In this document: positions 52,521-63,273 of the stretch, piece by piece
Position numbering within the stretch: position 1 is the first letter of the stretch
Layout: each line of letters opens with the position of its first letter
Assembly: GCF_024529975.1 (NCBI RefSeq)
Contig: NZ_AP024897.1
Coordinates: forward strand, 2,542,001 to 2,606,000
Direction: 5' to 3'
Length of the DNA stretch: 64,000 nucleotides
From: Vibrio quintilis
GTDB lineage: Bacteria > Pseudomonadota > Gammaproteobacteria > Enterobacterales > Vibrionaceae
Translations under genes and position numbers: made by a program
The notes under the pieces: generated by a model
What the model saw: the letters and a program-made list of their open reading frames with translations, nothing else
Told to the model about the DNA's origin: nothing
Database searches by the model: none

Positions 52521-53732
52521 ATGGCAAAGCGTAAAGAGCGGGTCACCAACCATGAGCAACTGAAACTGGTCAATGCCGCACTGGTCTACCAGCTGATTGA
52601 TTTAGATGGCCCGGTGTCCCGGGTCAGTATTGCTCAGCGAAGCGCGCTGGCACCTGCCAGCGTGACCAATATCACCCGCCAGTTACTTGATCACCATTTA
52701 ATCAGCGAAGTCGCCCAACAGGCTTCCACCGGTGGACGCCCGGCCATCTCACTGACAACCCAAAAGAGCAGTTTTCATTTTGTGTCCTGTCGCCTTGGGC
52801 GGGATATGATTCAGTGCGCAGCGATGGATCTGTCAGGGCAGAGTCTCTTCGAGCAGCAGACGGACATAGAGGAACATGACAAGCAGGGGATTGTTCACAC
52901 ACTGTTTGAGCAAATTCAGCAAATCATTGATCGTTTTCCCCAAAAACGTTTTATTGCCATTGCCGTTACGATGGCTGGTTTGGTTGACCCGGCATCCGGT
53001 ATTATTCATTACTCACCAAACCATAGTATTTCAGGTCTGAAGCTCTCCGAGGTTTTAAAAGATTTTTCATTACCGGTCTACATCGGCAACGACATCAGAG
53101 CACGGGCGTTATCAGAGTTTTATCTCGGTGCTGCACAACAGTGTGATGATTTTATTCTGGTCAGTATTCACAATGGTGTGGGTGCCGGTATTATCTCTGA
53201 CGGGCAGCTATTGCTCGGCAAACACCGGCCGGTCGGGGAAATCGGCCATGTGCAAATCGATCCGTTCGGTAAGCAGTGTCACTGTGGAAGTTTTGGCTGC
53301 CTTGAAACCGTGGTGTCCAATCCGGCCATCATTGAGCAAACCCGTGAATTACTGGAGCGCGGCCACCCGAGTTGTTTAGCAGCAGAACCTTTGACGATTG
53401 AGTCCATCTGCCATGCTGCAACTCAGGGCGATGCCGTTGCAACTCACATCATGGAACAGGCTGCCAAATCTCTGGGACAGGTACTGGGGATGCTGGTGAA
53501 TGTATTTAATCCGGAAAAGATTCTGCTCTCCGGTGAAATAGCCCAGAGCAGCCCGGTGTTGTTCCCACTACTGATGCAGCAAATCAAGCGCCAGACGCTG
53601 CCGAGTTTTTCAGGTAACCTGACACTGGATCGCGCCACATTCCAGCATCAGGATACCATCGGTGGCTACGCGCTGATTAAACGCGCTTTACACGAGAGCG
53701 ATTTACTCCGGCACATTATGCAGGCTCAATAA
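52521..53732 (+). CDS. nagC: ROK-family repressor NagC
   Basis: Repressor of GlcNAc genes released by GlcNAc-6-phosphate, and a wider regulator of amino-sugar use. 403 residues: N-terminal winged helix (VSRVSIAQRSALAPASVTNITRQLLDHHLI), then the sugar-kinase-like ROK domain with the zinc motif CHCGSFGCLE at about residues 253-262 and GEIGHVQID. The ribosome site GAGAGA overlaps the nagA stop, so nagBAC is one operon. Confidence 0.95.
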   Translation: MAKRKERVTNHEQLKLVNAALVYQLIDLDGPVSRVSIAQRSALAPASVTNITRQLLDHHLISEVAQQASTGGRPAISLTTQKSSFHFVSCRLGRDMIQCAAMDLSGQSLFEQQTDIEEHDKQGIVHTLFEQIQQIIDRFPQKRFIAIAVTMAGLVDPASGIIHYSPNHSISGLKLSEVLKDFSLPVYIGNDIRARALSEFYLGAAQQCDDFILVSIHNGVGAGIISDGQLLLGKHRPVGEIGHVQIDPFGKQCHCGSFGCLETVVSNPAIIEQTRELLERGHPSCLAAEPLTIESICHAATQGDAVATHIMEQAAKSLGQVLGMLVNVFNPEKILLSGEIAQSSPVLFPLLMQQIKRQTLPSFSGNLTLDRATFQHQDTIGGYALIKRALHESDLLRHIMQAQ

Positions 53733-53736
53733 TCCC

Positions 53737-54405
53737 TCACACACCAACCAAGAGAAACACAGCCATCAGGCAGAGCACCCCACCGGCAATTTGCTCAATC
53801 CGGTGAATTTTCCTGCTCAGCAGATGCTGGACCCGCGAGTGACCCAGAAAAGAAGCCACCGCCAAATCCCAGATCAGCACAACACCGACCATCCAGACAC
53901 CACAGAAAATCTGCTGCGCGGCTGAAACATCCCTGCCGAGAATCACCGTCATTAAGCTCATATAAAACAAGGAATTCTTCGGGTTCAGTAATGCAGATGC
54001 AAGGCCAAGAAAAAATTGTTTCCCCTTTGAAACCCGATCTTCACTGACGGTATGCCAGTTTAAATCTCTCTGCCGGCTCCTGAGTAAATGATATCCAATA
54101 TAAAGCAGATAAGCCGCCCCGGCCCACTGAATTATCAGAAACAACGCATGATTATCCTTCATGATCTGCCAGCCCCCAATCACCAATGCAATGTAAACCG
54201 CATTCCCACTGGCAATGCCGAAACAAATCAGTGCACTCCCCGCCAGCCGGTAGCGGATGGCATAACCGGTAATTAAAAAGAAATCAGGGCCAGGAGAAAG
54301 CAACGCCATAAAATGGGCAAGGGCCAGCAGGAAGAAAGCCGGAGGAATCAGGGACGACAACATGCGCAATATCTCTTTACTTTTCTGTTTCAAAGCAAAG
54401 AGCAT
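53737..54405 (-). CDS. LysE/RhtB-family amino-acid exporter
   Basis: Inner-membrane exporter with about six hydrophobic segments, 222 residues, or 208 if translation begins at the ATG at 54363, which has AGAGAT upstream. Seen: the RhtB signature LSPGPDFFLITGYAIRYRLAGSALICFGIASGN and the LNPKNSLFYMSLM motif. Family substrates are homoserine, threonine and other amino acids; the specific one is unknown. The AraC gene upstream ends 13 bases before the longest start, so the two may be co-transcribed. Confidence 0.82.
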   Translation of the reverse strand: MLFALKQKSKEILRMLSSLIPPAFFLLALAHFMALLSPGPDFFLITGYAIRYRLAGSALICFGIASGNAVYIALVIGGWQIMKDNHALFLIIQWAGAAYLLYIGYHLLRSRQRDLNWHTVSEDRVSKGKQFFLGLASALLNPKNSLFYMSLMTVILGRDVSAAQQIFCGVWMVGVVLIWDLAVASFLGHSRVQHLLSRKIHRIEQIAGGVLCLMAVFLLVGV

Positions 54406-54417
54406 AACCAGCGGTCG

Positions 54418-55275
54418 TCAGGATTTATTGTCAAAAATTGACATCACCTGCCGATATTGATTCGGCGTCGCCGCCGTGTACTGAACAAAAGCCTTATGAA
54501 AATGGCTTTGATCGCTGAACCCGAGCGTCAGTGCGGTATCCGCAATCGAATAACCAGCCCGGAGTAATTTTTTCCCTTCTTCGACCCGCAGGTTATTGAT
54601 CAACGCTTTGGGCGTCATCCCATAGTCACGGGAAAAACGCCGGATAACGGTCTCAGGGCGCTGTTGAAACTCTTCTGCGAGCTCATCCAGTGAAGGCGGT
54701 GAACTGAGACGTGTCATCAAGGTTTGCTGAATACGATCACTGCTTTCCGGCCCGCTTCCCTGCTCTGCCGCATGACGGATGACCCGCGTTTCAGACGAAT
54801 CAGACTGATACAGTGCGATCAGAGACTGACAGAAAGACCGCACCAGGTCAGGTATTTCCATCGCAGATGACTGATTTGAAATCGCATCAACAATTGCCAG
54901 ATATTGCCGGAACAATCCGGGAGACTTGAGAACCGTCAGGGAAGGACCAAAATGAACCGGAGATAACCCGTTCAGCTGACAAAGCCAGTCCGGGTCGATA
55001 TACAGCATATGATAGCTCCGGTGCATCCCGCCAACCGGATTGCAGGCATGCACCACCTCAGGCGGAATAATCACCACATCACCGGTATTGAGAATTTCCC
55101 GCCGGTCATTGAAACTGACGCAGGTTTGCCCGCCGACAATCGCACCAACAGACAGCTCCGCATGCCGGTGAGCTTTATAAGGCCGCAGGCTCCGGAAAGT
55201 ACTTCTCAGTTCCAGAGGGACTGCATCATCAATGGTGTAAAAATGTTGGGAGATTTTATTTGCTGAACTCATCAT
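54418..55275 (-). CDS. AraC-family regulator with cupin domain
   Basis: A 285-residue regulator. N-terminal cupin-like sensing domain (YKAHRHAELSVGAIVGGQTCVSFNDRREILNTGDVVIIPPEVVHACNP, residues about 33-82) and two C-terminal helix-turn-helix units (PSLDELAEEFQQRPETVIRRFSRDYGMTPKALINNLRVEEGKKLL; IADTALTLGFSDQSHFHKAFVQYTAATPNQYR). GGGGAGG precedes the start. Probably regulates the adjacent exporter. Confidence 0.88.
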   Translation of the reverse strand: MMSSANKISQHFYTIDDAVPLELRSTFRSLRPYKAHRHAELSVGAIVGGQTCVSFNDRREILNTGDVVIIPPEVVHACNPVGGMHRSYHMLYIDPDWLCQLNGLSPVHFGPSLTVLKSPGLFRQYLAIVDAISNQSSAMEIPDLVRSFCQSLIALYQSDSSETRVIRHAAEQGSGPESSDRIQQTLMTRLSSPPSLDELAEEFQQRPETVIRRFSRDYGMTPKALINNLRVEEGKKLLRAGYSIADTALTLGFSDQSHFHKAFVQYTAATPNQYRQVMSIFDNKS

Positions 55276-55344
55276 GCCTCCCCTTCAATGCTTCCAAATA
55301 TGATTATCACTGACATACTTGTTTATTATTATCTCATGATTCAA

Positions 55345-55399
55345 TTGAAACCAGATACTGATAAATATATAGAAATTATAAAAAATCTGTTAAAACAGA
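55345..55399 (+). promoter_or_regulatory. Promoter and palindrome before recombinase
   Basis: A sigma-70-like pair TTGAAA (55345-55350) and TATAGA (55368-55373) with 17 bases between. Just downstream, at 55386-55399, is the inverted repeat TCTGTT-AA-AACAGA, which would cover the first transcribed bases. The same 12-base core, CTGTT-N2-AACAG, recurs at 60132-60143 on the other side of the module. Promoter calls by eye are tentative; the repeat is certain. Confidence 0.5.
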
Positions 55400-55429
55400 C
55401 ACATAAATTCATTTATCAGAGACAATAAA

Positions 55430-56371
55430 ATGATAGTGCTTGGTCAGGTTGTACAAGACTACCTACTCTTTTGTGAAAAAAACAGAGGATTATCCACACA
55501 TTCAATCAAAGCTTATCACTGTGATTTAAAACAGTTTATATCCTGTCTGGGGATACAAACTGAAATTTATCACATCGATAAAGTGGCTTTAGGCCGGTTT
55601 CATCAACACCTGGTCAGCCGTGAACTCAACCCGGCATCCATCAAAAGAAAGTTTGCCTGTATCAGAGCCATGTTTAAGTGGCTGGAGCAGGAAGAAATTC
55701 TGGATAGCAATCCGTTTTACAAATTTCATACAGAAATCAAACTCCCGAAGCGATTGCCGCGCAATGTTCCCCGGTCAGATTTGAAGCGAATGCTGCTTCA
55801 GGGACATTCACATGTGAAAGATAAAGTATCGGCACACCTCACCCACAAGAGACAGTTAAATCATCTGACTAAATTACTGTCGGCGGAATTGATGATCGCA
55901 ACCGGTTTAAGAGTTGGTGAGTTGGCCAGTATTCACATGAGTAACATTTTTCTGGCTGAGGGAAAAATAAAAATTTTAGGCAAAGGCTCCAGGGAAAGGT
56001 TTGTCTTTTTACCAGAACAGGAATTGCGTGATCTCATCAAAAATTATCTGTACGCCCGGCAAATCACAGAGCCACAGACAGATCATCTGCTGGTTAACAG
56101 TCGCGGACAACAGGCATCAACTCAATTTTTGCGCAAGCTGATTCGGGACTTATCCTCTGAAGCAAAAACCCAAACCAAAGTCACCCCACATATGCTCCGG
56201 CACAGCGCAGCCTGCGAACTCCTCGAATCTGGTTTAGACATTCGCTTTGTCCAACGCTTGCTGGGACACAGCAGTATTTCCACCACCGAAATTTACACCC
56301 ATGTTTCAGACACAGCCCTGCAAGAGAAGCTGCAACAGGCACAAATAAGGAGTCGCATTATGGTTAAGTAG
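55430..56371 (+). CDS. Tyrosine recombinase, XerC/XerD-like
   Basis: Site-specific recombinase of 313 residues. N-terminal SAM-like core-binding domain (STHSIKAYHCDLKQFISCLG) and a complete catalytic domain: Arg161 (TGLRVGEL), Lys185 (GKGSRER), His254 and Arg257 (HMLRHSAA), His280 (LLGHSSISTTEIY) and nucleophile Tyr289. It is unlikely to be housekeeping XerC or XerD, because it sits beside AT-rich cargo bounded by inverted repeats and its own last codons (MVK, stop) lie inside the left repeat. Base composition is like the host core, unlike the AT-rich genes that follow. Proposed role: inverting 56360-60089. Confidence 0.88.
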   Translation: MIVLGQVVQDYLLFCEKNRGLSTHSIKAYHCDLKQFISCLGIQTEIYHIDKVALGRFHQHLVSRELNPASIKRKFACIRAMFKWLEQEEILDSNPFYKFHTEIKLPKRLPRNVPRSDLKRMLLQGHSHVKDKVSAHLTHKRQLNHLTKLLSAELMIATGLRVGELASIHMSNIFLAEGKIKILGKGSRERFVFLPEQELRDLIKNYLYARQITEPQTDHLLVNSRGQQASTQFLRKLIRDLSSEAKTQTKVTPHMLRHSAACELLESGLDIRFVQRLLGHSSISTTEIYTHVSDTALQEKLQQAQIRSRIMVK

Positions 56372-56402
56372 GGATAACTAATAATTATGGTTAAAATGAT
56401 TG
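56360..56402 (+). repeat. Left inverted repeat of the switch (IRL)
   Basis: A 43-bp repeat matching the minus strand of 60047-60089 at 39 positions. The inner part, 56370-56395 (beginning AGGGATAACTAATAATT), is identical over 26 bases. Differences fall at 56363, 56368, 56369 and 56396. It spans the last codons and stop of the recombinase gene and the ribosome-binding region, ATG and first codons of the SHMT-like gene. Inside it, TAACTA-N7-TGGTTA forms a partial dyad like a tyrosine-recombinase core site. Confidence 0.9.
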
Positions 56403-57646
56403 TACAAGAAAAATTGAGAAAATATGCGGAATTACTTGATAATTTTGAAAAAAACAACAGTAACACTATTCCGTTATGCGCCGCAGAGACCATAGTATCA
56501 AATCTTGTAAAAGCCCCTCTAAGAAGCTCCTTCTCTGAAAGATACATAAAGTCTGGAATTAAAAACTTTGATGCATCTAAAGAATTTATCGGTAGCCAAT
56601 ATATATACCCCGTTTACCAGCTTATAAGTGAGATATGCCTTGAGTTATTTGGCGCACAATATGCTGATGCACGACCTTTATCTGGAATGAATGCAGTTCT
56701 GACTTCTTTGATGTCAATAACTAACCATGGAGATAACATCTTACTTCTACATCCGGATGCAGGTGCGCATGAGTCTTATCCCCAAATATGTGATAGACTG
56801 GGACTGAAAACAACGTATATCCCTTTCGACTTAGATAATATTCGATATGATATTGATGAAACCAACAAATTACTAAATAATCAAAAATATAAGGCAATAG
56901 TAATCCCCCCTTCTGATTTAATTGACCAACCACCTTTAGATAAACTGATTATCCCTATTGAAACAATAGTATTTTATGACTGCACGCAGTCTTTTGGACT
57001 AATAGCTTCTGGCCATCATTTAAATCCAATGAAGTTATCCAATCAGGTTATTTTACTTGGTGGTACACATAAAACGATATCAGGCCCAACATGTGGTCTT
57101 ATACTCTGTAATGATAAACATTTATCAACAATCTTAGAAAATAAAATAACACCAATATACGTAAGAAATCCACACCCTCACCATATAGCTTCTTTACTAA
57201 TGGCTCTTATAGAATTTATTGAGTATGGAACTGAATATATGAAAAATATAATAACCACCTCAAATACTCTTGGATGTCTATTATCAAAACATGGTTTTTC
57301 TGTAAAAAAAATCGATAAGTTACATTATTCTAACACACATCAACTATTTATATCTTTAAATAAAAATGACGCTATAAATATGGAAAAAAACGCACGATTA
57401 CTAAATATATCTTTAGATAAGAAATCAAAAAAAATGTACGGTGATGCTGGAATAAGAATTGGTGTCCAAGCAATTACTCGACTTGGATGGGGGAAAGAAG
57501 AGTTAGATATTCTAGCGAGCATCCTTTCTAAAATGAAATATGAACATCTAAGTCCATCAATAATAAAAATGGCTAGTCAACTCAGAGGTAGAGATAAATT
57601 AATATACACAATCGATGCTAGTGCACATGAATTTCTAAATACTTAA
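56387..57646 (+). CDS. SHMT-like PLP-dependent enzyme
   Basis: A fold-type I PLP protein of 419 residues related to serine hydroxymethyltransferase. Seen: AAETIVSN near residue 32 (SHMT has an E-x-x-x-S here), LFGAQYADARPLSGMNAVL at 88-106, cofactor Asp198 in FYDCTQSFGLIASG, and the Schiff-base Lys229 in GGTHKTISGP. Odd: the His that stacks on PLP in SHMT (DMAHVAG) is Gln201 here, and the usual GPRGG after the lysine is GPTCG, so canonical tetrahydrofolate-dependent SHMT chemistry is doubtful. AT-rich, unlike the recombinase upstream. Starts 16 bases after the recombinase stop, so it is probably expressed with it in this orientation. True substrate unknown. Confidence 0.8.
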   Translation: MVKMIVQEKLRKYAELLDNFEKNNSNTIPLCAAETIVSNLVKAPLRSSFSERYIKSGIKNFDASKEFIGSQYIYPVYQLISEICLELFGAQYADARPLSGMNAVLTSLMSITNHGDNILLLHPDAGAHESYPQICDRLGLKTTYIPFDLDNIRYDIDETNKLLNNQKYKAIVIPPSDLIDQPPLDKLIIPIETIVFYDCTQSFGLIASGHHLNPMKLSNQVILLGGTHKTISGPTCGLILCNDKHLSTILENKITPIYVRNPHPHHIASLLMALIEFIEYGTEYMKNIITTSNTLGCLLSKHGFSVKKIDKLHYSNTHQLFISLNKNDAINMEKNARLLNISLDKKSKKMYGDAGIRIGVQAITRLGWGKEELDILASILSKMKYEHLSPSIIKMASQLRGRDKLIYTIDASAHEFLNT

Positions 57647-60062
57647 TACTATCCAATCCTTGCTGAACTATATTTATATCTCTATTTAATTTTAGATTTC
57701 CAAGATCGTTCAGCAAAAATTCTACAGATTCTTTTATTCCAATTTTGAATTTTTCTTGCATAAAAAATTTTATTAATCTTGCTCTGACTAAAGTTATTTT
57801 CATGTTCAATTCTCTTGCTACATTCTCCACATAAATAACCTTATTTATTAATTCTGACTCTGATCTACAAAAACATATTTCATCCGAGAATATTTCACAA
57901 ATACAAGCGCATAGAATTGCACTTGTATATAAATTTCTATCACCATTTTCTAACGTTTGTGACATTACTTGTAAATAATAATCGGAAGCTTCTTTATACT
58001 TACCAGAAAATCTTAAGTTATCTCCTTTTCCATACAATCCGTTAATTATAGTCCTTAAATTATTTCTTCTTGCTATATCCAAAGATGTTTCAAGAGCATT
58101 CTCAGCGCTAGGAATATCACCGAGCAAACGTTGACATCTGGAGTAATTTCTCCATAAAGCAGATTCTAATGAGGGACTTTCTAAGTCAAATGTATTAAGT
58201 ATCACTTTAAAAGATTCTAAAGTTACTTTTTCTCCAAGAGTAAATAAAATTGAAAACTGACTATTCAAACTACGGAGAAACATTATATCATTGTTTGACG
58301 GACACTTACCTTTAATTTCTTCGTATATCCTATAGGCTTCGAGTAGATCATCACCTATATGTCCTGTTAAATGAGCATACAGCCAAAGAGATTCCTTTTC
58401 TTCTTTTATCCATTTTAACTCTTTTGCCCGAGTAACAAGAGCCATAGCTTGCGCTCTTGATAAGTCATATTGGTTGAGTAAATGGTCTAGATCAGCAACA
58501 GCATAAAAAACATTAAACTCAAATTTGCTAGTTATATTTGACACTTGTTTATTTGAAAATTCATATAAATAAGACGATTTAGTTAACGCTTTTGCCTTTT
58601 GATAATCACCAGTAGCTAGAAGGGATAGCATGTAACCATATAGAGCTTGATTTTTTATGTTTGTATCACTATGAAAAACTGAATCATTACCAGCCCAAGC
58701 CTCTACATTTTCCCAAAAAGAAATTAAAAATATGTAATTTTGCCCAAGAATTTCTTTATTTAAAGTGTCTGTTATATCCATTATTTTATTTTTCATTAGA
58801 GCGTTAGATAAAGCATCCAATATAATTGATTCTAATTTATATTTTCTCTCAAGAAATGAAGATGCCACTTTGGACATACTGGAAATAATTTTTCTTTCAT
58901 ATTCTAAACAGATATCTCTAATAAGATCATGAGCTTTAACACAAGTCTCTTGGCCAAAATTATTTTCTATAATGGTAGATTGCTGTTTAAGTTTTCTCAG
59001 TGAAGTATCAACTCGAGAAAACTGAGCCAGATTAATACTAGAACTAGGAATATTTGTTACAACAAGATTACACAAACATATAAAAATAAGTACATCTCTC
59101 TCATCTTGAGAAAGCCCTGAATATATCTCAGAAATAAAATATGAACTAAATCCATCAATATTATCTGGAGATTTAAGCTTTGAATCTAATGTAAAAAAAT
59201 TAAGGTAAAGAGGTAGTCCTATACTTTTTATGTAAATTTTATTAAGCATAGCATCATTTATGGTTATTCCTTTTGATTCAATAAAAGTCTGACAATGATT
59301 TTCATTGAAAGGCTCTAATTTTTGTGACTGTATTGATAAATGAGGGTCCACCACTTTAAATATTGAACCAATAATAAAAAAGTCTGAAGGGCGAACATTT
59401 GTATATTGTCTAATTAGTTTTGTTAAAGACTGCATAGCCGCAACATTGTTTACATTATCTAAAATGAAACAAATTTTTTCACTTTTGTATATTTTATCGA
59501 TTTGCATTGCTAAATCAGATATACTTTCGGCTCGCTTATCACAGGCCATTTCACCTAGAACAGCTATAGAACTCTCCAGTTCAGTAGTATCAACCACATC
59601 TAAATATATCACATTATTGGTTGTTTTTTTTACCTGATCCTGATTTATTTTACTTATTAACTTATAACATTCACCTCTATTTAAAATATCGCCTATGTAC
59701 TTCAAATACTCACTTTTTCCAACACCTCTTTGACCATAAATAGATAAAATATTCCTTGTTTTTAGGTGCATAAGAGTGTTAACCACATCGTCTTTTCTAT
59801 TTATGAACTTAGATGGATTAGTATAATAGATCTTTATTGGGATGGTGCTTTTTGGAGAATTACTTTTTTCATGTATATAGCTAACTATATTTAAAGAAGC
59901 ATAAACTGCCCCAAGTAATGCACAAATTGTGGATACGAGCACTTGAATTAGTTTAAGATCGGTAACTCCTTTAGGAATTCCATACAAATACAAGACAGCC
60001 AAGGAAATTCCCATTAGTAATATAAATGTAACTAACAGTAAACGACCAATCACTTTAACCAT
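57618..60062 (-). CDS. Membrane-anchored STAND-type NTPase with repeat domain
   Basis: An 814-residue protein. Two N-terminal membrane segments (about residues 7-27 and 38-62), then a P-loop NTPase with Walker A GQRGVGKS (110-117), Walker B ICFILDN (197-203) and a sensor-like strand DFFIIGS, a winged-helix-like middle (about 300-400), and a long helical C-terminal half with TPR-like character (GDYQKAKALTKSSYLYEF; GDIPSAENALETSLDIARRNN; GKYKEASDYYLQVM). This architecture is typical of NB-ARC/NACHT-like STAND signalling proteins, many of which act in phage defence. No effector domain is obvious other than the membrane segments. The first codons, MVK, lie in the right inverted repeat. The end overlaps the SHMT-like gene by 29 bases. 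Confidence 0.78.
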   Translation of the reverse strand: MVKVIGRLLLVTFILLMGISLAVLYLYGIPKGVTDLKLIQVLVSTICALLGAVYASLNIVSYIHEKSNSPKSTIPIKIYYTNPSKFINRKDDVVNTLMHLKTRNILSIYGQRGVGKSEYLKYIGDILNRGECYKLISKINQDQVKKTTNNVIYLDVVDTTELESSIAVLGEMACDKRAESISDLAMQIDKIYKSEKICFILDNVNNVAAMQSLTKLIRQYTNVRPSDFFIIGSIFKVVDPHLSIQSQKLEPFNENHCQTFIESKGITINDAMLNKIYIKSIGLPLYLNFFTLDSKLKSPDNIDGFSSYFISEIYSGLSQDERDVLIFICLCNLVVTNIPSSSINLAQFSRVDTSLRKLKQQSTIIENNFGQETCVKAHDLIRDICLEYERKIISSMSKVASSFLERKYKLESIILDALSNALMKNKIMDITDTLNKEILGQNYIFLISFWENVEAWAGNDSVFHSDTNIKNQALYGYMLSLLATGDYQKAKALTKSSYLYEFSNKQVSNITSKFEFNVFYAVADLDHLLNQYDLSRAQAMALVTRAKELKWIKEEKESLWLYAHLTGHIGDDLLEAYRIYEEIKGKCPSNNDIMFLRSLNSQFSILFTLGEKVTLESFKVILNTFDLESPSLESALWRNYSRCQRLLGDIPSAENALETSLDIARRNNLRTIINGLYGKGDNLRFSGKYKEASDYYLQVMSQTLENGDRNLYTSAILCACICEIFSDEICFCRSESELINKVIYVENVARELNMKITLVRARLIKFFMQEKFKIGIKESVEFLLNDLGNLKLNRDINIVQQGLDSIKYLEIHVH

Positions 60063-60089
60063 AATTATTAGTTATCCCTTTTTAATCAT
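60047..60089 (-). repeat. Right inverted repeat of the switch (IRR)
   Basis: Reverse-complement partner of 56360-56402. It covers the ribosome-binding region, ATG and first codons of the STAND NTPase gene. The 26 identical bases are 60054-60079, and six more (60047-60052) match after a single mismatch. Confidence 0.9.
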
Positions 60090-60118
60090 TCTTGTGCTCA
60101 CTGCGTGAGCCATGTCTG

Positions 60119-60147
60119 GTAAAATCAAATGCTGTTATAACAGTCAA
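60119..60147 (-). promoter_or_regulatory. Promoter-like sequence and palindrome facing the NTPase gene
   Basis: On the minus strand: TTGACT (60142-60147) and, 17 bases on, TTTTAC (60119-60124), a good -35 with a weak -10. The palindrome CTGTTATAACAG (60132-60143) fills much of the space between them. It has the same CTGTT-N2-AACAG core as the site at 55387-55398 before the recombinase. A hairpin GCTCAC-TGC-GTGAGC (60096-60110) follows in the leader. If active, the NTPase gene would be expressed from here in the present orientation. Confidence 0.45.
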
Positions 60148-60607
60148 TATAAATATAGTAGCATAAAGTAACTTAGCATAGCTTATAGATACAAAATAAT
60201 TAGTGATAACCCTGTTGTTTTTTCAAAAAACTTAATAGTCATTTGTAAAAAAGCGTCATCAGTTAAGCGATAAATACAATCCCCCCCTTTCTGAATGCCG
60301 ATGCTCCTGCCAGAATTACCCAATAACGACTGACTTCGGAATCTTACCCGCAGCCATAACATCTCCCGCTAAAACAATATGAAACAGGAAAATAAACACA
60401 GAATTCGCCCCACGAAACGTTACCCGGCTCTGAACTCTCAGATGAATCGATGGTAAAATCAGGGCGGCTCAGCCAGAATAGCAAATAACAGCCTTATCAA
60501 CAGGAGTTGTTTGGTGATGCATTTTGCCTGCAGGATGCAGACCGGTGTCAGGAAGAAGCCATCAATTGTGATTCGCAGTTCCGATAAGAGACAGAGGTAA
60601 TTACCGG
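60148..60607. other. Right flank of the switch, non-coding
   Basis: No supported gene. The base composition changes from AT-rich to normal near 60245, marking the probable right edge of acquired DNA. On the minus strand a frame starts with GGGAG and ATG at 60357 (MAAGKIPKSVVIG) but stops after 13 codons; a one-base shift would continue for about 47 more codons. This may be a decayed gene start. The right part holds the promoter of the hydrolase gene at 60608. Confidence 0.4.
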
Positions 60608-61243
60608 ATGAAAGTTATTTTGATTCATGGTTTGTACATGCATGGCATGGTCATGCAACCGCTCAGCCAGCTTTTAGCCAAAAGAGGCTACGAAACCGAT
60701 GTCATCAGCTATAACTCTGTTTCCATTGAGGAAGATGACGTTTTCCAATCGATTGACTCCCTGATCGATCCGTCCGGGCCCAATATTTTAATTGGTCATA
60801 GTCTGGGTGGACTGATGATTAAACATTATCTGAAAGCCAGACAGATGACGACTGCACAGGTCTCCCATGTGGTTGCGATTGGCTCTCCCCTGCAGGGTGC
60901 TTCCATTGTCGATGCGATTCAGGCGCTCGGGCTGGGGCAGATTCTTGGCAACTCAACGGATTACGGTCTGGAAAACCACAGCGGTGAATGGAACTTCCCG
61001 CAAAAGCTGGGCTGTATTGCCGGAACCATGGCGATTGGTTTTCGACCGCTACTCATCAACAGTGCGCATCCGTCCGATGGAACCGTCACCCTTGAAGAGA
61101 CCAAAATCACCGGTATGACGGATCATCTGGAAATCAATCACACCCATACCAGCCTGATCTTCAGTAACGAAGTGGCGGAACAAATCGACTATTTTATCCG
61201 CTATAACTGCTTTTTCAGACAACCGGAAGAATCAACCGCATAG
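60608..61243 (+). CDS. Alpha/beta hydrolase, lipase-like
   Basis: A 211-residue alpha/beta-hydrolase without a signal peptide. Seen: HGLYMHG oxyanion-hole stretch near residue 7, nucleophile elbow GHSLGG (Ser about 64), Asp in HPSDGTV and His in NHTHTSL near the C-terminus. Resembles small esterases annotated as PGAP1-like or lipase class 2. Substrate unknown. GAGACAGAGG is upstream of the start. Confidence 0.8.
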   Translation: MKVILIHGLYMHGMVMQPLSQLLAKRGYETDVISYNSVSIEEDDVFQSIDSLIDPSGPNILIGHSLGGLMIKHYLKARQMTTAQVSHVVAIGSPLQGASIVDAIQALGLGQILGNSTDYGLENHSGEWNFPQKLGCIAGTMAIGFRPLLINSAHPSDGTVTLEETKITGMTDHLEINHTHTSLIFSNEVAEQIDYFIRYNCFFRQPEESTA

Positions 61244-61349
61244 GCTGCAAAAAGCATACTGCTAAAAATAGTTGTCAATTTATCGGTTGGCGTCACAGAC
61301 AAAACCCCGGTAAGGTTAGAGACAAGATTCTCTGACACTTTGATAATTT

Positions 61350-62438
61350 ATGTGCCATTCAGATCCGATTACAGATCAGGCGATCATTGATCGCTATTAT
61401 CAGGCGCTTCTGGACAGAAATGCAGATTATGCCGGTACTTTTTTCGTCGGCGTGAAAACCACCTCGGTATTTTGCATCTCTACCTGCCGGGCCAGAAAAC
61501 CTAAAAAGCAGAATGTGGTCTTCTATACCCACTTTAAAGATGCGCTGTCAGCTGGGTTCCGGCCCTGTAAAATCTGCCGTCCGACAGAAAATGCCAGTGA
61601 AGCGCCTGAGCAGGTGACTCTGGCCATCGAGCTTGTGCGACAAAATCCGAAAGAGAAAATTTCAGATGCACTGCTGACTGAGCATCAAATCCGGCCGGAA
61701 ATGATTCGGCGGTGGTTCAAAAAAAACTACGGAATGACTTTCCACACCTTCCAGCGGATGTATCGTATTAACTATGCGCTGGAAGAACTCAGGGAAGGTA
61801 AAAAGTTGCTGGATACCGCCTATGAGGCCGGTTATGAATCACTCAGTGGCTTTGGCTACACCTTTAAAAAACTGACAGGGAAAACACCTGGGATGAAAGA
61901 TGACAATCAGGTAATTTTGATCAACCGGTTTACGACGCCTCTGGGGCCGATGTTCGTCTGTGCGACCGATGAAGGCGTTTGTTTGCTGGAGTTTGTCGAA
62001 CGCAGAATGCTGGAAACAGAGTTCAGTGACCTGCAGCGCCGGTTAAACGCATCAATTATTGCCGGGGAAAACCAGCATATCAGACAGGCAAAACAGGAGA
62101 TCGCTGAATATTTTGCCGGTACCAGAACCCGGTTTGACGTGCAACTCCATACACCGGGCACCCCATTCCAGCAACAAGTCTGGCAGGCGCTGCAAAATAT
62201 TGACTATGGGACGACTGCGTCTTACCAGCAGCAGGCTGAACGAATTGGTAACCCGAAAGCGGTTCGTGCCGTCGCTTCCGCTAACGGACATAATCGCATC
62301 GCTATTATTATTCCCTGCCACCGGGTGATCGGTAAAAACGGTAAACTGGTTGGCTATGCAGGTGGATTAGAGAGAAAACGCTGGCTGCTGGAACATGAAC
62401 AGACGCATCTGCCGGAGTCAGACAAAGAAACATTGTGA
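61350..62438 (+). CDS. ada: Ada: bifunctional methyltransferase and transcriptional activator
   Basis: Adaptive-response protein of 362 residues. N-terminal zinc domain with Cys42, Cys46 (CISTC), Cys73 and Cys76 (CKIC), one of which accepts methyl from phosphotriesters. Middle AraC-type helix-turn-helix (EHQIRPEMIRRWFKKNYGMTFHTFQR; LLDTAYEAGYESLSGFGYTFKKLTGKTPG). C-terminal O6-methylguanine methyltransferase domain with Cys322 in PCHRVIG. The usual CRPSC of Ada is CISTC here. Whether it activates the adjacent hydrolase is unknown. Confidence 0.93.
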   Translation: MCHSDPITDQAIIDRYYQALLDRNADYAGTFFVGVKTTSVFCISTCRARKPKKQNVVFYTHFKDALSAGFRPCKICRPTENASEAPEQVTLAIELVRQNPKEKISDALLTEHQIRPEMIRRWFKKNYGMTFHTFQRMYRINYALEELREGKKLLDTAYEAGYESLSGFGYTFKKLTGKTPGMKDDNQVILINRFTTPLGPMFVCATDEGVCLLEFVERRMLETEFSDLQRRLNASIIAGENQHIRQAKQEIAEYFAGTRTRFDVQLHTPGTPFQQQVWQALQNIDYGTTASYQQQAERIGNPKAVRAVASANGHNRIAIIIPCHRVIGKNGKLVGYAGGLERKRWLLEHEQTHLPESDKETL

Positions 62439-62467
62439 ACTTCATAGTCCGAACCTGAGCGCAGGAC

Positions 62468-62568
62468 AAAAAAAAGCCAATTACAACGGTGTAATTGGCT
62501 AAACATGTGAATAAAAAAACTCCACTAACAACGTCAGTTGGCTAGTTAACCCTCGGCTTAAAGGGTTA
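62468..62568 (-). ncRNA. qrr: Qrr quorum-sensing small RNA
   Basis: Hfq-dependent regulatory RNA of the Vibrio quorum-sensing circuit, made when phosphorylated LuxO activates sigma-54 at low cell density. It controls master regulator (luxR/hapR-type) and aphA mRNAs. Seen on the minus strand: 5' stem TAACCC...GGGTTA, the invariant Qrr core AGCCAACTGACGTTGTTAG (about 62521-62543), a T-rich linker, and a terminator with stem AGCCAATTACA...TGTAATTGGCT followed by eight T. Length about 100 nt, as in known Qrrs. A sigma-54 promoter lies directly upstream. Which of the Qrr copies this is, and where luxO is, cannot be told from the window. Confidence 0.93.
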
Positions 62569-62578
62569 TCTATATGTA

Positions 62579-62595
62579 ATCAAGTCCCGTGCCAA
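62579..62595 (-). promoter_or_regulatory. Sigma-54 promoter of qrr
   Basis: On the minus strand TTGGCACG-GGAC-TTGAT: a perfect -24 element TTGGCACG and a -12 element that reads GA where GC is usual. Predicted start near 62568, the first base of the Qrr stem. LuxO sites would be expected upstream, in 62600-62730; I could not pick them out with confidence. Confidence 0.8.
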
Positions 62596-62733
62596 CTTTT
62601 ACATAACAAAAAATCAACATGTTACAGAAAAAACCGATTTTACGGAGAGAATACTAATTGCATAATAAAAAGTATTCAGCACAACCATTGCAATATGCAA
62701 AAGAACACAATCTACTTTTTGCAAAGCAAAGAT

Positions 62734-63273
62734 TCAGAAATTCACCCCGATTTTTACTGATACTTCCCCTGTCGTCTTCATATCAAAAGCTGAAGAACCA
62801 AACTTAACCGACTTATCACCAGCAACAGGCACATGGATACCTGCCCAGGGGTTCACATAAATATGAGGAGCAAGATAATGGACATACCCACATCCCAGCG
62901 TCGCCAGATAGGTCTGATAGCTTTTCCGGTCTGAAGACTGCTCTTCCGTGACATCGCCCCGCCACTGTTCAGCGCCGAAACCAATCCAAAAACCTTGCTG
63001 AGACGGGTCCGGATAATAATCAACGATCACTGCGCCAACATCGACCTGATGATCTTTAAATCCATTCTGAGTAAACATGTCCGGCGATTCAAACTTTGTC
63101 ACAACTCCCCGGAACTTCAAATGACCCCGACCAGCGGTCAGAGAAAAATAATGCCCATTCAACAGATAAGGCAACACATCGGCTTCAGCGCCAACATGCC
63201 AGTTATTATTTGCAGCACAGGCCGACGAAAAAAATAAAGCTGCCCATAACGCGATGTAATTTTGCTGTTTCAT
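62734..63273 (-). CDS. Small outer-membrane beta-barrel-like protein
   Basis: A 179-residue secreted protein. Start taken at 63273 (MKQQNYIALWAALFFSSACA) because GGTGG lies five bases upstream; a longer frame would run through the operator palindromes. Signal peptide cleaved near ACAA. The mature part alternates in beta-strand fashion, has many aromatic residues, and ends VSVKIGVNF with terminal Phe, typical of outer-membrane barrels. Family not recognised. Its promoter region holds two stacked palindromes. Confidence 0.75.
   Translation of the reverse strand: MKQQNYIALWAALFFSSACAANNNWHVGAEADVLPYLLNGHYFSLTAGRGHLKFRGVVTKFESPDMFTQNGFKDHQVDVGAVIVDYYPDPSQQGFWIGFGAEQWRGDVTEEQSSDRKSYQTYLATLGCGYVHYLAPHIYVNPWAGIHVPVAGDKSVKFGSSAFDMKTTGEVSVKIGVNF

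Follow-up and report, generated by a model that had tools for sequence, protein, structure and literature searches.

Gene-choice inversion, in which a DNA segment flips and so brings alternative genes under a single promoter, is an established mechanism (PMC8987985), with the G segment of phage Mu, the C segment of phage P1 and Salmonella Hin as examples (PMC12529663). Switches driven by tyrosine recombinases are common (PMC5903667). Here we analyze a locus of Vibrio quintilis in a window of 64,000 nucleotides (C1:2542001-2606000 of a 5.85-Mb genome in 3 contigs; all coordinates are window positions), where the gene of a tyrosine recombinase adjoins two facing genes, one for an enzyme resembling serine hydroxymethyltransferase (SHMT) and one for a nucleoside triphosphatase (NTPase). 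We consider it quite probable that the locus is a recombinase-linked two-gene cassette, in which the recombinase likely inverts a 3.7-kb segment and so changes the gene lying behind its own, and the contents of which are predicted to be exchangeable.

Two facing genes start within the arms of an inverted repeat

The features of the locus are collected in Table 1. As an earlier note on this DNA had claimed, two convergent genes begin inside the arms of one inverted repeat, and an intact recombinase open reading frame (ORF) ends inside the left arm. The 43-bp repeat itself was also confirmed: 39 of its 43 positions (91%) are complementary, the longest exact stretch is 26 nt, and 3644 nt lie between the arms. 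It is the longest of the 35 inverted pairs reported for positions 53000-63000, the next among the 25 pairs shown being 31 nt long and 74% matched. The two ORFs between the arms overlap by 29 bp at their 3' ends (57618-57646). Inverted sites thus bound the segment, as in a site-specific DNA inversion switch.

Table 1. Features of the Vibrio quintilis locus, in window positions (aa, amino acids; PLP, pyridoxal phosphate).
Feature	Positions	Strand	Remarks
XerD-like tyrosine recombinase, 313 aa; presumed inversion driver	55430-56371	+	last codons in left arm
Left arm of inverted repeat	56360-56402	+	core site GATAACTAATAATTA at 56373-56387
SHMT-like PLP enzyme, 419 aa	56387-57646	+	start codon (56387) in left arm; PF00464 2e-21
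AAA/STAND-type NTPase, 814 aa, TPR-like C-terminal part	57618-60062	-	start codon (60062) in right arm
Right (outer) arm of inverted repeat	60047-60089	-	core site GATAACTAATAATTA at 60062-60076, - strand
Outer flank up to alpha/beta hydrolase gene	60090-60607		would hold any promoter of the outer gene; none convincing found

The conserved site is a core of about 22 bp, and the 43-bp similarity is peculiar to the Vibrio quintilis strain. The repeat is not a product of chance, because the same core site recurs in the same places at 16 other recombinase loci. The earlier note had proposed a search for further copies of the repeat, as in a shufflon, where more than two sites bound several segments. 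A 111-base query over the left arm returned only the two known copies in the 5.85-Mb genome, so a multi-segment shufflon is ruled out. In the same genome, the core site was represented by two sites with the window's centre and by two unpaired matches with other centres.

The layout recurs at related recombinase loci

At least 120 proteins related to the recombinase, each with 43% identity or higher, came up in our protein search, including those of Vibrio gazogenes (68%), Marinomonas, Pseudoalteromonas, Alteromonas, Thalassotalea and others. In whole genomes, with matches accepted at E values up to 1e-50 or 1e-60 depending on the search, the gene was carried by 4 of 227 genomes of the genus and 3 of 369 of the class (own genome included in both), by 1 of 394 of the order (the own genome), and by 14 of 325 of one family that had been picked by its TonB receptors; none was found in 152 and in 3 genomes of two other families. 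Together, these searches gave 19 recombinase relatives and, with the window, 20 loci. An initial search of 100 relatives had a best match outside the own genome of 128 bits, compared with at least 210 bits for the loci used. A first contig scan with the recombinase as query gave a single 36% match (L003), the viral-contig scan found no relative of it, and the plasmid search found none above 40% among the matches listed.

Two inverted core sites (pattern ATAAYTAnnAATTA) bound or flank a cassette in 17 of the 20 loci, window included. Recombinase and cassette share a contig in 12 of them (the window, G145, G187, G189, G589, G1306, G1101, G1129, G1346, G1140, G1166 and G1193), and the cassette is a contig of its own in four (G1338, G1282, G1092 and G1270). 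In the remaining one, G728, each flank stops 37 bases beyond a site, and no contig with the cassette was seen. Seventeen cassettes could be read, namely the 12 on the same contig, the four on separate contigs and one solo cassette in G1089. Two genes or gene groups are opposed in every one of the 17. Of the 34 first genes, 33 start no more than 10 nt from a core site, and the remaining one, in G1166, starts at a distance of 142 nt. Two of these start codons are TTG.

Strand exchange by tyrosine recombinases requires that the centres of the two sites agree. The two centres agreed within the locus in 17 of 17 loci, and they differ between loci, with six variants. Six of the 17 deviate from CTAGGAA, and none of 200000 shuffles matched all loci; this test rests on three of the seven centre positions (the search pattern fixed the other four), omits G189 as the sister of G187, and includes the solo cassette of G1089.

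As a side observation, G1129 holds a third site-like match with the centre CTACGAA about 3 kb beyond its outer site (L081 11108-11122), which may be a chance match.

Both orientations coexist in relatives

Both orientations of the cassette coexist in relatives, directly in G189 and by contig breaks in five more. In the G189 assembly, contig C25, which carries the outer flank, ends with the site and 57 bp of a carbamoyltransferase gene. A second contig, C11, joins the identical carbamoyltransferase start to the recombinase, with an exact 77-bp overlap with C25. The assembly has only three sites with this centre, and in the sister genome G187, assembled in 3 contigs, the outer flank is joined to the NTPase gene. 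One cassette copy cannot join both flanks by the same end in one molecule, and consequently both orientations are present in G189. The earlier note had proposed that relatives be compared for both orientations, with a lack of inverted molecules and relatives as an outcome against a switch; what we found is the opposite.

Four further genomes (G1092, G1270, G1338 and G1282) are split at the sites into recombinase flank, cassette and outer flank. Their cassette contigs are 3915, 6241, 3698 and 6927 bp long, respectively, and both begin and end within 9 bp of a core site. In G1092 the cassette has an exact 121-bp overlap with the outer flank, and in G1282 there are two exact overlaps with flanks, each of 127 bp; contigs that stop at the site overlap by 16-24 bp, which is the site itself. 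Both G728 flanks terminate in stretches of 55 bp, measured from the point at which agreement between the two arms sets in. Short-read assemblers commonly work with k-mers of 55, 77, 121 and 127. Altogether, a contig break falls no more than 130 bp from a site in 6 of the 10 draft loci, compared with 0.19 expected from the contig numbers.

Each locus does hold a short repeat, and one could therefore take the breaks for short-repeat artefacts and the inverted arms for a mere duplicated translation-start region. We find this scarcely credible. The exact repeats at these loci measure 15-26 nt, and overlaps and end stretches of 55-127 bp exceed them, so two alternative neighbours, and not the repeat, should fork the assembly graph. 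Moreover, duplicated starts predict neither equal centres, nor an empty site, nor a linked recombinase, and the static duplicated start region that the earlier note had offered as one alternative was rejected since it leaves these three unexplained.

Metagenome assemblies gave a further hint. Among at least 119 relatives of the SHMT-like protein, the lengths of the longest contigs peak at 3.4-4.3 kb (37 of the 119 listed), which is the size of a cassette bounded by two sites. This suggests that these assemblies may also break at the sites.

The site accompanies the recombinase gene

The window recombinase matches PF00589 (5e-38) and PF02899 (3e-12). R161, K185, H254, R257, H280 and Y289, the catalytic R-K-H-R-H/W-Y set of the tyrosine recombinase superfamily, do not vary among the 19 full-length members of the family, that of the window among them. 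With the NCBIfam XerD and XerC models it scores 205.2 and 203.4 bits, below the equivalog cut-offs of 329.6 and 335.15, and its best other match in the own genome is 33% identical.

The pattern GATAACTANNAATTATG occurs in 13 of 335 genomes of one family, comprising 11 of 14 recombinase carriers and 2 of 321 others (Fisher 2e-16, with about 10 of the 335 genomes lying outside the 325-genome recombinase search and counted as non-carriers); each of the two non-carriers has one unpaired match. The pattern was drawn from the carriers' own sites, and the telling part is therefore its near-absence from the other genomes. This genomic association makes the adjacent recombinase the candidate driver of the inversion. 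The host XerC/XerD pair could be thought to do so instead, as the site resembles dif in having two arms about an A/T-rich centre. This is highly improbable, because the distribution of the site follows that of the adjacent recombinase gene, even though 99 of the 100 relatives of the initial search, own genome included, contain weaker matches to the recombinase of the XerC/D type.

Cassette contents differ between related loci

Next, we compared loci with related surroundings. The window and G145 have a common neighbourhood (nagC 74.5%, hydrolase 60%, ada 77%) and recombinases that are 70% identical, but different cassettes. The same holds for G1306 and G1338, whose DNA is 72% identical over 947 bp at the recombinase and 69% over 959 bp in the outer flank, and for G1140 and G1166, which match over the recombinase region (85%) and over some 80 bp by the outer arm. 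At the recombinase, G1282 and G1338 are 84% identical across 1125 bp, and in the outer flank their identity is 93% across 1000 bp, with some rearrangement near the locus. These comparisons lead us to predict that cassette contents are exchangeable.

One stretch of the G1282 outer flank (L100 730-1242) is 89% identical to a stretch upstream of the G1338 recombinase (L082 1665-2179), which is a larger rearrangement around the locus.

Two loci lack one of the two parts. In G1197 (L084 6410-6436), the recombinase gene is followed by a single complete dyad site and no cassette, that is, an empty platform. This site, GTAAGGATAATT-AGG-AATTATCCTTAC, is the complete dyad of two outer halves, as would be expected if cassettes enter one symmetric site. 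Conversely, contig C11 of G1089 (L103 4776-6547) carries a solo cassette with two inverted sites and facing genes for proteins of 316 aa and 263 aa (UbiA-like); the recombinase of this genome lies on contig C197 without a site, and the recombinase search found none on C11. We saw no unoccupied orthologous chromosomal place: a search with the hydrolase gave 19 other loci with 1.5-kb flanks, none of them with adjoining nagC, lysE, araC or ada matches.

The 17 cassettes that were read represent 15 distinct ones, G187 and G189 having one in common and G1101 and G1129 another (Table 2). In 9 of the 15, an enzyme (SHMT, ATP-grasp, carbamoyltransferase or PLP decarboxylase) faces an AAA/STAND or SIR2-NACHT protein. 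The earlier note had tied the frame to a choice between SHMT and NTPase. Since this pair is one of many interchangeable cassettes in relatives, the frame is not specific to these two activities.

Table 2. Contents of the 15 distinct cassettes, assigned by Pfam; several NTPase matches are weak (E 1e-3 to 1e-5).
Locus	One side	Facing side
Window	SHMT	NTPase
G145	ATP-grasp (D-Ala-D-Ala ligase-like)	NTPase
G189	carbamoyltransferase N-domain protein	NTPase
G1346	tRNA-editing-domain protein + ATP-grasp	815-aa protein, no Pfam match
G1140	ATP-grasp	NTPase
G1193	ATP-grasp	NTPase
G1338	SHMT	NTPase
G1282	PLP decarboxylase	SIR2-NACHT
G1270	NodU-type carbamoyltransferase	AAA protein with 384-aa gene
G1092	ATP-grasp + radical-SAM protein	pentapeptide-repeat protein
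G589	glycosyltransferase	226 aa without match
G1166	ketosynthase-III-like	332 aa without match
G1306	CHAT-EamA protein	243 aa without match
G1101	PAP2 phosphatase	347 aa without match
G1089	UbiA	316 aa without match

Enzymes of the same class are only distantly related, with 32-35% identity among three of the four ATP-grasp proteins and 22% between the two SHMTs. The cassette NTPases are hardly related to each other, with two blastp pairs at 21-22%; the 815-aa protein of G1346 is related to the G1140 NTPase (blastp 2e-18). The SHMT-like protein of the window matches the SHMT structure 4bhd (2e-36), and its lysine motif THKT is kept, aligned with THKT. Its partner carries GQRGVGKS, a P-loop-like motif read from the sequence, and matches AAA_14, ATPase_2, AAA_22 and TPR of Pfam, in each case below the gathering threshold. 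This NTPase had no NCBIfam match, and no relative of it was found among the 7996 candidates scored, which were those sharing most words with it.

PADLOC covered part of the cassette proteins. It gave no match for the recombinase, the SHMT-like protein or the NTPase of the window, and its only strong matches were CHAT in G1306 (3e-17) and a SIR2-Ago type in G1282 (7e-16). Weaker ones were mad8 for the G189 NTPase (5e-6), LmuB for the G145 NTPase (6e-4) and SspA for the G1282 decarboxylase (9e-5).

In G187, the NTPase gene lies in three separate frames (L040 7458-10002), while the G189 copy is a single 848-aa frame; the split may be a real inactivation or a sequencing artefact.

The locus lies between a nagC-like gene, followed by LysE- and AraC-like genes, and an alpha/beta hydrolase gene. 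The LysE-like and AraC-like genes (53737-55275) separate nagC from the recombinase gene in the window, and in G145 the recombinase gene comes directly after nagC. Just beyond the outer arm there is a short hairpin-like sequence without a T run, GCTCACGCAGTGAGC (60096-60110, - strand).

A model of inversion and exchange

In our model, the recombinase would pair the two sites and exchange strands within their 7-bp centre, CTAATAA in the window. This would swap the inner halves, each with its start codon, between two fixed outer halves, one of which follows the recombinase gene while the other faces the outer flank. In Vibrio quintilis, both outer halves read GGGATAAC, with a ribosome-binding-like GGGA. 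In the recorded state, the SHMT-like enzyme lies behind the recombinase and the NTPase would be read from the outer flank, and the inverted state would place the NTPase behind the recombinase. The model suggests that the adjacent recombinase acts, that inversion may occur in the Vibrio quintilis strain itself, and that expression would change with it.

Several observations weigh against this model or limit its reach. No break was seen in 4 of the 10 drafts and in 7 of 7 near-complete genomes, and the assembly of the own strain holds one orientation, with no inverted molecule seen. Three of the 20 loci (G1197, G1089 and G1097) have no cassette beside the recombinase, the last of them matching the recombinase only in part (residues 138-310) and lacking an adjacent site. 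Six of the 15 distinct cassettes are not enzyme/NTPase pairs, and no exchange intermediate was seen, exchange resting on the comparison of loci. Scanning the window with promoter consensus sequences gave no promoter-like match directed inward from beyond the outer arm, and among 16 outer flanks a best-match promoter test gave one value of p < 0.05 (lowest 0.04), the shuffles being crude (two-base blocks). Finally, the enzyme adjoins the recombinase in 6 of 6 resolved enzyme/NTPase loci (the window, G145, G187, G1346, G1140 and G1193), so flipping may be rare or one state may be favoured. The proposal of the earlier note is partly supported, by the adjacent recombinase, the inverted sites at both gene starts and the inversion in relatives; one promoter shared by both genes gained no such backing from the promoter scans.

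The constant position of the enzyme would also fit another explanation, that the sites are the insertion ends of a captured cassette. The recombinase would then load its own site, inversion would be a side reaction without a regulatory role, and both genes would be expressed from both sides. The empty single-site locus of G1197, the solo cassette of G1089 and the unrelated cassettes at closely related loci agree with such capture. We regard it as unlikely, though still a serious contender: sequenced cultures contain the two orientations side by side, and almost every cassette has its start codons at the sites, as a gene-choice switch needs.

Returning to the inversion of a two-gene cassette, our guess from the cassette contents is that the locus is probably a phase-variable conflict or defence module. 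More tentatively, and with somewhat less than even confidence in the proposal as a whole, these loci may form a widespread family of flip-and-swap cassettes in marine gammaproteobacteria, where one recombinase would both invert and exchange two-gene cassettes at its own 3' end, and where the pair would typically set a small-molecule enzyme against an NTPase or effector-like protein. If this is true, clonal cells would divide into an enzyme state and an effector state, and lineages would trade whole pairs, where integrons trade single genes. Such loci would provide natural pairs for asking about enzyme-partner effects and about bet-hedging control of defence-like proteins, and the site motif is a handle for finding more cassettes with unknown enzymes.

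Comparison with known systems

Integrons are tyrosine recombinase platforms at which interchangeable cassettes enter next to the recombinase gene, and the locus resembles them in combining a recombinase platform with interchangeable cassettes. It is not an integron: there is no IntI-type integrase (TIGR02249 95.4 bits, cut-off 265), and each locus has one two-gene cassette with a short site at each end, not an array of single genes. What sets it apart is thus a single cassette of two facing genes with inverted end sites, and inversion instead of excision.

Among gene-choice switches, the likeness to Mu, P1 and Hin lies in inverted sites, a recombinase, and an inversion that connects a single expression point with alternative genes (PMC8987985; PMC12529663). 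Those systems rely on serine recombinases and alternate between versions of a single product type, tail fibres or flagellins; here a tyrosine recombinase frames two unrelated genes, the segment containing the complete ORF of each, and the pair varies by genome. The fim switch, RecV of C. difficile and PsrA of S. pneumoniae have in common with our locus a tyrosine recombinase and short inverted repeats, but the invertible segments described for such switches are mostly intergenic or 5' untranslated (PMC5903667). The available part of that literature on tyrosine-recombinase phase variation contained no metabolic enzyme facing a STAND NTPase.

The strand-biased circularizing integrative elements (SEs) of Vibrio also have tyrosine recombinases, inverted terminal motifs and variable cargo; they circularize, and IntA, IntB and another two core genes are located between their ends (PMC9345347). 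An SE was rejected as an identity for our locus, where a single recombinase is found outside the segment that the sites delimit, and where these sites bring about inversion.

We found no described system of exchangeable two-gene cassettes of this kind among the papers listed in our literature searches, most subscription papers and preprints being outside its reach, and we therefore regard the locus as a known mechanism class, gene-choice inversion, in a new form. Known DNA-inversion switches mostly toggle surface variants, regulators or specificity subunits; in these loci, one recombinase frame accommodates unrelated pairs, in many cases with an enzyme opposite an NTPase, and the two states are found together in sequenced cultures.

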